This document shows, piece after piece, positions 26,401 to 29,400 of a DNA stretch of 64,000 nt. The DNA is from Ricordea florida (Eukaryota; Cnidaria; Anthozoa; Corallimorpharia; Ricordeidae). Every line of letters starts with the position of its first letter. Within the stretch, counting starts at the first letter, position 1. The translations under genes were made by a program, and so were the position numbers. The notes below the pieces were generated by a model. That model was not told the origin of the DNA, searched no databases, and saw only the letters and a list, made by a program, of their open reading frames with translations. The DNA lies in the NCBI GenBank assembly GCA_949710005.1, contig OX453275.1, positions 4,758,473-4,822,472 on the forward strand. Direction: 5' to 3'.

Positions 26401-29400
26401 TTTTCTTTTCGTTTAAACGTGTAAGTAACCTTATGTCTATTCAATCTTTGTAATTGTTGTAAACCATAAATCAATAAAGAAGAGAGAAAAAAAAAAATTC
26501 GACGGTGTCATGTAGAACTAAATATGGCTCAACTTTGTTGCAAAGGAACATGTCAAACTTTGCAATTTTTTCTTGTTATATGGTTTTGTTCAGCGTAATG
26601 GACGCTATCGCTATGGAAAGTTAAAATCAGTCGTGCCAATTCTGAGAGTAACTCTTTTTTTTAATGCAGAGTGGAATTTTGGCAATCGTGAACTTTACTT
26701 CCCGAGAAATTTACCTGTTCCATTTCGGCGAAATTAAGTTCCCATGAAAGTAAGTAACAATAAGGTTGAATAATTCTCGAATTGTCACCACTAATCGCTG
26801 CTACCATCAAGCTTGGCATATCAATAGCGCCCACGTTCCATTGAACCGCGACGTTGGCGGGTTATTACTCGACGCTTAGTTACATCTTGTGTATGAAGCA
26901 ACAGCATTCATCAAGGGTATCATGTTTAGGGAGCTTCACAGCCTTGCACAATCACCCCTGAAGAAGACACAAGACAGGAGTGTCACAACATTGAGTCTGT
27001 GAATTATTAAAGGAGCTTCACAGCCTTGCCCAATCACCTCTGAAGAAGACACTAGACAGGAGTGTCAAAACATTGAGTCTGTGAATTATTAAAGGAGATT
27101 CACAGCCTTGCCCAATCACCACTGAAGAAGACACTAGACAGGAGTGTCAAAACATTGAGTCTGTGAATTATTAAAGGAGCTTCACAGCCTTGCCCAATCA
27201 CCCCTGAAGAAGACACTAGACAGGAGTGTCACAACATTGAGTCTGTGAATTATTAAAGGAGCTTCACAGCCTTGCCCAATCACCCCTGAAGAAGACACAA
27301 GACAGGAGTGTCAAAACATTGAGTCTGTGAATTATTAAAGGAGCTTCACAGCCTTGCCCAATCACCTCTGAAGAAGACACTAGACAGGAGTGTCAAAACA
27401 TTGAGTCTGTGAATTATTAAAGGAGATTCACAGCCTTGCCCAATCACCACTGAAGAAGACACTAGACAGGAGTGTCAAAACATTGAGTCTGTGAATTATT
27501 AAAGGAGCTTCACAGCCTCGCCCAATCACCCCTGAAGAAGACACTAGACAGGAGTGTCACAACATTGAGTCTGTGAATTATTAAAGGAGCTTCACAGCCT
27601 TGCCCAATCACCACTGAAGAAGACACTAGACAGGAGTGTCAAAACATTGAGTCTGTGAATTATTAAAGGAGCTTCACAGCCTCGCCCAATCACCCCTGAA
27701 GAAGACACTAGACAGGAGTGTCACAACATTGAGTCTGTGAATTATTAAAGGAGCATCACAGCCTTGCCCAATCACCTCTGAAGAAGACACTAGACAGGAG
27801 TGTCACAACATTGAGTCTGTGAATTATTAAAGGAGCTTCACAGCCTTGCCTAATCACCACTGAAGAAGACACTAGACAGAAGTGTCACAACATTGAGTCT
27901 GTGAATTATTAAAGGAGTTTCACAGCCTTGCTCAATCACCTCTGAAGAAGACACTAGACAGAAGTGTCACAACATTGAGTCTGTGAATTATTAAAGGAGT
28001 TTCACAGCCTTGCTCAATCACCTCTGAAGAAGACACTAGACAGAAGTGTCACAACATTGAGTCTGTGAATTATTAAAGGAGTTTCACAGCCTTGCTCAAT
28101 CACCTCTGAAGAAGACACTAGACAGGAGTGTCACAACATTGAGTCTGTGAATTATTAAAGGAGATTCACAGCCTTGCCTAATCACCACTGAAGAAGACAC
28201 TAGACAGAAGTGTCACAACATTGAGTCTGTGAATTATTAAAGGAGATTCACAGCCTTGCCTAATCACCACTGAAGAAGACACTAGACAGAAGTGTCACAA
28301 CATTGAGTCTGTGAATTATTAAAGGAGTTTCACAGCCTTGCTCAATCACCTCTGAAGAAGACACTAGACAGGAGTGTCAAAACATTGAGTCTGTGAATTA
28401 TTAAAGGAGATTCACAGCCTTGCCTAATCACCACTGAAGAAGACAGAAGTGTCACAACATTGAGTCTGTGAATTATTAAAGGAGCATCACAGCCTTGCCC
28501 AATCACCTCTGAAGAAGACACTAGACAGGAGTGTCAAAACATTGAGTCTGTGAATTATTAAAGGAGATTCACAGCCTTGCCCAATCACCCCTGAAGAAGA
28601 CACTAGACAGGAGTGTCACAACATTGAGTCTGTGAATTATTAAAGGAGATTCACAGCCTTGCCCAATCACCCCTGAAGAAGACACTAGACAGGAGTGTCA
28701 AAACATTGAGTCTGTGAATTATTAAAGGAGATTCACAGCCTTGCCCAATCACCCCTGAAGAAGACACTAGACAGGAGTGTCACAACATTGAGTCTGTGAA
28801 TTATTAAAGGAGATTCACAGCCTTGCCCAATCACCCCTGAAGAAGACACTAGACAGGAGTGTCACAACATTGAGTCTGTGAATTATTAAAGGAGCTTCAC
28901 AGCCTTGCCTAATCACCACTGAAGAAGACACTAGACAGGAGTGTCACAACATTGAGTCTGTGAATTATTAAAGGAGTTTCACAGCCTTGCCCAATCACCA
29001 CTGAAGAAGACACTAGACAGGAGTGTCACAACATTGAGTCTGTGAATTATTAAAGGAGTTTCACAGCCTTGCTCAATCACCACTGAAGAAGACACTAGAC
29101 AGAAGTGTCACAACATTGAGTCTGTGAATTATTAAAGGAGCTTCACAGCCTTGCCCAATCACCCCTGACGAAGACACTAGACAGAAGTGTCACAACATTG
29201 AGTCTGTGAATTATTAAAGGAGTTTCACAGCCTTGCCTAATCAGCCCTAAAGAAGACACTAGACAGGAGTGTCAAAACTCCGGGTCGGTGAATTGTAAAG
29301 TTTTAAGTGACATTCATTATTTCAAACCAGTGTAGCATCAAACTATGGCTGATTGTACACCTGGTTGCAATGCGCACATTTCCTTTAACCCTTCAGGTCT

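Follow-up and report, generated by a model that had tools for sequence, protein, structure and literature searches.

The window analysed here is a stretch of 64,000 nucleotides of Ricordea florida DNA, in which a stop-to-stop listing gave 14 ORFs of 125 aa or longer. It contains a tandem array of 82-bp units located within an intron of an NPL4-type gene (Table 1). The exon preceding this intron (24476-24568) corresponds to positions 1-31 of the Pfam NPL4 profile (E-value of 2.2e-14) and is directly followed by GTGAGT, the 3' end of the intron reads CATTTACTAG and ends at 29629, and the exon starting at 29630 corresponds to profile positions 33-127 (E-value of 3.5e-35). Both exons also match PDB chains named NPL4. 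This coverage of the profile on the two sides confirms the intronic location of the array, which had been proposed in an earlier note on this DNA. The array is in the sense orientation relative to the NPL4-type gene.

Table 1. Coordinates of the array, its surroundings, its relatives and the comparison motif within the window
Feature	Position	Strand	Evidence
Host intron of the NPL4-type gene, 5061 bp, GT-AG	24569..29629	+	Profile matches of the flanking exons, splice sites
Single-copy 5' part of the dispersed repeat, abutting the array start	26856..26929	+	BLASTN with the minus-strand copy
Tandem array, 29 units	26930..29300	+	Tandem Repeats Finder, unit splitting
75-bp unit, 7 bp shorter inside the inner hairpin	28406..28480	+	Unit splitting, alignment
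Unit 29, the most diverged, continuing into the 3' flank of the dispersed repeat (GGTGAATTGTAAAG)	29219..29300	+	Unit splitting, BLASTN, alignment
Single-copy 3' part of the dispersed repeat, abutting the array end	29301..29356	+	BLASTN with the minus-strand copy
Other copy of the dispersed repeat, holding a single unit; intron of an SNF2-type gene, sense	43521..43725	-	BLASTN, profile search, flanking exons
Single-copy relative of the unit, keeping GAAACGTT (G12 present), A9 to G	43581..43662	-	BLASTN, alignment, core table
Intact-looking minimal hammerhead outside the array, helix I of 5 bp, core letters complete, GUC	13464..13508	-	0 core mismatches

A period-82 array of 28.7 copies with 95% matches was recognized by Tandem Repeats Finder at 26930-29278. 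When the units were delimited by cutting at their common start (GGAG..TCACAGCC), the region 26930-29300 resolved into 29 head-to-tail units, of which 28 have 82 bp and a single one has 75 bp. The 28 full-length units share a mean pairwise identity of 0.950 (minimum 0.817), and the array as such exceeds chance. In this respect (29 units, period of 82) it is as the earlier note described it, but the accompanying statement that all 29 units keep the same motifs was too strong. CTGAAGA is present in 27 units (unit 28 has CTGACGA and unit 29 CTAAAGA), GACACT in 26/29 and AGTGTC in 29/29, while the complete inner hairpin, composed of GACACT, a 7-base loop and AGTGTC, is found in 26 and is absent from units 1, 5 and 19. 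GAGTC occurs in 28/29 units, and the outer arms TTCACAG and CTGTGAA in 27/29 and 28/29, respectively. Directly after GTC, 10 units have AAAAC and 19 have ACAAC, and GAAAC does not occur on the plus strand of 26801-29400. Ten variable columns were counted among 27 units (units 19 and 29 excluded); by eye these lie both in and out of the stems and the core, and no constraint is visible in their distribution. As for higher-order structure, 22 unit types (8 sites) are represented among the 29 units and the sole recurring two-unit block is that of units 2-3 and 6-7, which gives nothing firm on the higher-order organisation of the array.

Several other repeats are present in the window. A 106-bp satellite (8.3 copies, Tandem Repeats Finder) occupies 42459-43338, and a related piece, with 84-85% identity in the two longest matches, lies about 38 kb away at 3801-4023. 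Tandem Repeats Finder also recognized a 30-bp repeat with the palindrome TGGTTTAACCA in its unit (40325-40549, 7.5 copies) and a 114-bp unit starting with TTAACCCTTTCACTCCCAAGAGTG (63028-63244, 1.9 copies, 100% matches). The latter is a repeat known from coral genomes. Another dispersed repeat is represented by 43778-43913 and 1632-1779, minus strand (66% identity over 149 columns).

With the array masked, a BLASTN search of the window using the unit as query revealed one convincing relative, on the minus strand at 43662-43581 (72% identity, E-value of 2.4e-8). A 14-base exact match at 55203-55216 (E-value of 1.3) was dismissed. The similarity between the two loci extends beyond the unit on both sides. 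The 5' flank together with unit 1 shares 66% identity with the second copy over 157 columns (E-values of 3.1e-13 against a chosen 1200-bp subject and 3.0e-11 against the window), and unit 29 together with the 3' flank shares 73% over 122 columns (4.1e-17 and 2.2e-15, respectively). A profile of the three stretches finds two loci and no third one in the window, the next best hit having an E-value of 5.1. The second copy is bracketed by exons at 44164-44229, matching positions 145-165 of Pfam SNF2-rel_dom (E-value of 7.5e-5, below the Pfam cut-off), and at 43330-43524, matching positions 165-206 (E-value of 4.3e-7). Since these match the SNF2 profile on either side, the second copy is intronic and in the sense orientation. 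The best PDB match of a further exon of this gene, which we take to be BTAF1/Mot1-like, is the helicase-like protein 7zb5_E. The simplest reading is that of a dispersed repeat, about 200 bp long or more, whose internal 82-bp stretch would have been amplified in one copy. Because the second copy matches the unit as well as single-copy DNA on both of its sides, the array is explained by local tandem amplification within one copy of the dispersed repeat and not by the insertion of a retrozyme. The single-copy flanks of the longer repeat continue on both sides of the array, which therefore became tandem in place, at the DNA level.

The core of a hammerhead is defined by C3 U4 G5 A6 N7 G8 A9 G12 A13 A14 A15 U16 H17 (PMC3088659, in the section of that paper used here). 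No copy with a complete core was seen among the array units and the relative. G12 is replaced by A in 29/29 units and A13 by C in 19/29, and unit 29 additionally has A for G5. The loss of G12 throughout the array agrees with the earlier note, which had called the motif decayed and its self-cleavage doubtful. In the relative, G12, A13, A14 and A15.1 are present, and the change of A9 to G is its sole fault among the 10 letters tabled. A relative with an intact GAAAC, which the earlier note had named as a check on its proposal, is thus available, with a fault elsewhere in its core. Stem II closes by sequence at 10.1-11.1, through GACACT/AGTGTC in the units with a complete inner hairpin and through 5 pairs, with a G-U at 10.1-11.1, in the relative. 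The unit has one additional unpaired A after A9; one extra base is also found there in the motif at 13464-13508, and an unpaired A at this place has a precedent in the viroid hammerhead CChMVd (PMC3705267, in the excerpt used). The dinucleotide at positions 11.1-12 is CA in the array and TG in the relative (GTGT[CA]AAAC and GTGT[TG]AAAC, respectively). Both may derive from a single CpG, which can decay in these two ways. This comparison of two loci is suggestive, and the array is nearly CpG-free (5 CpG in 2371 bases; observed/expected ratio of 0.046 vs 0.73 for the window); in the neighbouring 10 kb, however, CpG is not depleted (0.96).

The position of the cleavage site was considered in two registers. 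In the relative, GAAAC is followed by GTT and then by GGGT. With cleavage after GUU, helix III consists of an A-U and a C-G pair without a loop, and helix I runs from the core as G-C, G-C, a mismatch and U-A, followed by a one-sided bulge and outer CTGTG/CACAG pairs; in the GUC register, the first helix I pair fails. Ordinary array units have ATT at the cleavage site and A for G at 16.2, which brings the loopless helix III down to one pair. In the GUU register, 15 of the 23 distinct rows have the helix I pair 1.1-2.1 (9 C-G, 6 U-G) and 2/23 the next pair, while in the GUC register the first pair fails in 4/5 sequences tabled and holds in unit 29. This unit has TCC in place of a GUU-type site and fits better in the GUC register, with three pairs beside the core. 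The fold of the earlier note, with a GUC site and a large internal loop, was given up for the relative and the three ordinary units tabled, where the GUU register is preferred, but its GUC site fits unit 29 better.

Outside the array, an intact-looking minimal hammerhead on the minus strand at 13464-13508 served as a yardstick. It consists of TGACT, CTGAAGA, one T, a 3-bp start of stem II, GAAAC, GTC and AGTCA, and is the sole full-descriptor match in the window; matches of equal strength were encountered 2 times in 3323 shuffled windows. In its minimum-energy fold, stem II is formed and the helix I as drawn is not. A complete core at 37986 on the plus strand, lacking helix I, was taken as a chance match. 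Two further hammerhead-like motifs lie on the minus strand. One, CCGACGAAGGGCTAACGCTCGAAACGTC at 42172-42199, has one core mismatch. The other ends with CTGATGAAGGGCTATTACGAAACGTC, and on its CTGATGA half sits a 13-bp minisatellite (49506-49765, AATCTGATGGAGG on the minus strand, 18.8 copies by Tandem Repeats Finder), the array part of which is 49522-49765; a 10-bp hairpin, GGTCTATCAA/TTGATAGACC, is located upstream of this motif. By eye, the motifs at 42172-42199 and 49506-49531 have a common downstream flank and represent a second dispersed family.

The covariance-model check that had been suggested in the earlier note gave no score, since Rfam 15 yielded no matches on the window at gathering scores and none on 26800-29400 at E-values up to 10. 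For the relative, no hammerhead match was obtained, only unrelated families below threshold; among these, SNORD56 at 43582-43642 (21.4 bits vs a cut-off of 36, E-value of 0.055) was dismissed like the other sub-threshold rows. Nevertheless, the Rfam test seems close to blind for minimal hammerheads, because the intact-looking motif at 13464-13508 likewise went without a hammerhead match, as did those at 42172-42199 and 49506-49765.

Relatives outside the window were sought with exact-pattern scans, which may leave out records of the genome that the window belongs to. In IMG/VR, there were 0 hits for the stem with GAAAC, 0 for GAAACGTTGRGTCTGTGAATT and 0 for the unit with its 3' flank, as well as 0 and 0 for the second motif family and the family of the motif at 13503; scans of GTDB genome contigs gave 0 and 0. 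A looser pattern found 60 IMG/VR loci, in which the stem beside GAAAC has at most 3 pairs in 56/60 and 4 or 5 in the remaining 4, and helix I does not exceed 3 pairs in any of the 60. With stems this short, these loci were dropped as chance matches.

One alternative to a ribozyme ancestry is that the hammerhead look is due to chance, the array being an ordinary minisatellite that carries two inverted repeats and grew in a dispersed repeat without any ribozyme in its past. In 60 shuffles of the window, scanned for the 10 core letters together with a stem of at least 6 pairs, cores with at most 1/10 letters wrong (the state of the AAAAC units) appeared 0.2 times per shuffled window and those with at most 2/10 wrong (the state of the ACAAC units) 2.4 times. 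Therefore, the array by itself proves nothing, and its hammerhead look alone does not exceed chance. The same alternative is favoured by the incomplete core of every copy, by the differing register of unit 29, by the missing Rfam score and by the missing compensatory changes. The latter, another check named in the earlier note, were found at 0/13 pairs of the structure it had drawn and at 0/17 when the inner helix I was added (23 distinct rows), so that the stems show no covariation. The motif is also missing from the minimum-energy folds, stem II being present in that of unit 2 and absent in those of unit 4, units 4-5, unit 29 and the relative. On the other hand, the relative has GAAAC where the array has lost it, together with G-C pairs beside the core, and a fuller minimal hammerhead occurs in the same window (13464-13508). 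Moreover, when the letters of either copy were allowed in each column, a joint column shuffle produced a full core with a stem of at least 5 pairs in 46/20,000 cases (at least 4 pairs in 106/20,000), in a procedure that breaks dinucleotides, lets the copies be chosen freely and considers one ribozyme class. Taken together, we consider a chance resemblance unlikely, while giving it appreciable weight.

It is very improbable that the array is a retrozyme, i.e. a hammerhead tandem that spread via circular RNA and decayed in place afterwards. In cnidarians, retrozymes occur as tandem repeats (up to 62-mers) that carry type I motifs, but the units published have 150-450 bp and canonical helices (PMC7229834, in the portion of the article consulted). 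Measured against such metazoan retrozymes (150-450-bp units forming a whole element with a type I hammerhead), the 82-bp unit has an incomplete core and makes up an inner section of a longer repeat. Single-copy DNA of that repeat surrounds the array on both sides, and in the second copy a lone unit stands in the same context, which speaks against the retrozyme-like tandem element of the earlier note. Even less credible is the view that the array is still active as RNA, through slow or dimer-dependent self-cleavage of the intron or in some other structural role. It could appeal to the inner hairpin, complete in most units, to the sense orientation and to the minimal hammerheads of Penelope-like elements, which may cleave as dimers or with the assistance of proteins (PMC7761336 and PMC11167929, in the passages used). 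Nevertheless, G12 is missing in each of the 29 units, and any change in the core disqualified a match in PMC3088659, in the section cited above. The variable columns spare neither the stems nor the core. Furthermore, the outer 7-bp pair TTCACAG/CTGTGAA described in the earlier note has its arms in most units, but in the predicted fold of units 3-5 these pair mainly across the unit junction, with a probability of about 0.8 (0.69 for the last pair), against about 0.1 within a unit; the inner hairpin has a predicted pair probability of about 0.6 in the same RNA.

The reading that we prefer is that the amplified stretch has a hammerhead ancestry, which is plausible, though unproved, and to which we would assign a probability of about 0.65. 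This part of the claim of the earlier note, that the array descends from a hammerhead-type element, is favoured by the relative with GAAAC and weakened by the missing compensatory changes and the silence of Rfam. The dispersed repeat, which is old and spans at least about 200 bp, would have held a minimal type I hammerhead of the kind found in Penelope-like elements, composed of CUGANGA, one extra base, stem II, GAAAC, a loopless helix III, a GUU site and a helix I with a one-sided bulge; we infer the affiliation with Penelope from the motif only. G12 would have been lost ahead of the amplification, possibly via CpG decay. An 82-bp internal stretch of one copy of the repeat was duplicated in tandem at the DNA level, by slippage or unequal exchange, giving rise to the intronic minisatellite. 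The array does not conform to the hammerhead definition and is almost certainly inert, because G12 is gone from every unit. Most likely, it has no function for the host and can be regarded as neutral DNA of the intron, together with which it is presumably transcribed and spliced out.

Minimal hammerheads are reportedly the subject of papers by Cervera and de la Pena (2014), Lunse et al. (2017) and Arkhipova et al. (2017). Those of the Penelope type are described as devoid of helix III (PMC7761336, in the excerpt used), and more than 6000 type I motifs, mostly of the minimal kind, are given for a coral genome (PMC7229834, in the portion consulted). The repeat described here resembles the minimal type I hammerheads of Penelope-like elements, as presented in that excerpt of PMC7761336, in its CUGANGA, stem II, GAAAC, near absence of helix III and dispersed nature, the relative still having GAAACGTT; it differs from them in that no copy has a complete core and that the copies were seen only over about 200 bp, whereas a Penelope-like element as such is characterised by a reverse transcriptase with a GIY-YIG endonuclease. 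With the non-LTR retrozymes of Acropora millepora (PMC7229834, in the same portion), the array shares a head-to-tail tandem arrangement and a type I-like motif in an animal genome, while its unit is of 82 bp instead of 220-245 bp, its core is incomplete and it lies in a longer repeat with single-copy flanks. The hammerhead satellites of newts, schistosomes and Dolichopoda crickets likewise have a hammerhead-type motif in the satellite unit; in the accounts consulted, however, they are reported as self-cleaving or catalytic, whereas here there is one local array, with the motif broken in each unit. Our literature search found no paper linking a hammerhead ribozyme with an intronic tandem minisatellite, nor one on the letters of the motif. 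Minisatellites can grow from pieces of transposable elements, and the array is comparable with these, as an internal piece of a dispersed repeat was amplified in tandem at one locus; here, the piece resembles a ribozyme.

Two separate arrays in the window are located on hammerhead-like motifs, that of 82 bp and that of 13 bp at 49522-49765 on the minus strand, and both copies of the dispersed repeat are intronic, in the sense orientation and broken in the core. A wider idea, to which we give little credence, is that relics of minimal-hammerhead elements would be preferred seeds of new tandem arrays and that, in genes and on the sense strand, only copies with an already dead core could be amplified. 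The silence of Rfam seems to say little about the minimal hammerheads of animal genomes, as an intact-looking one in the window is missed. The array illustrates the birth of a satellite, in which a piece of a dispersed repeat was amplified 29 times at one site with the flanks still present. If the hammerhead ancestry is true, tandem hammerhead-like units need not be retrozymes, and the occurrence of the motif in tandem would be separable from the retrozyme life cycle.
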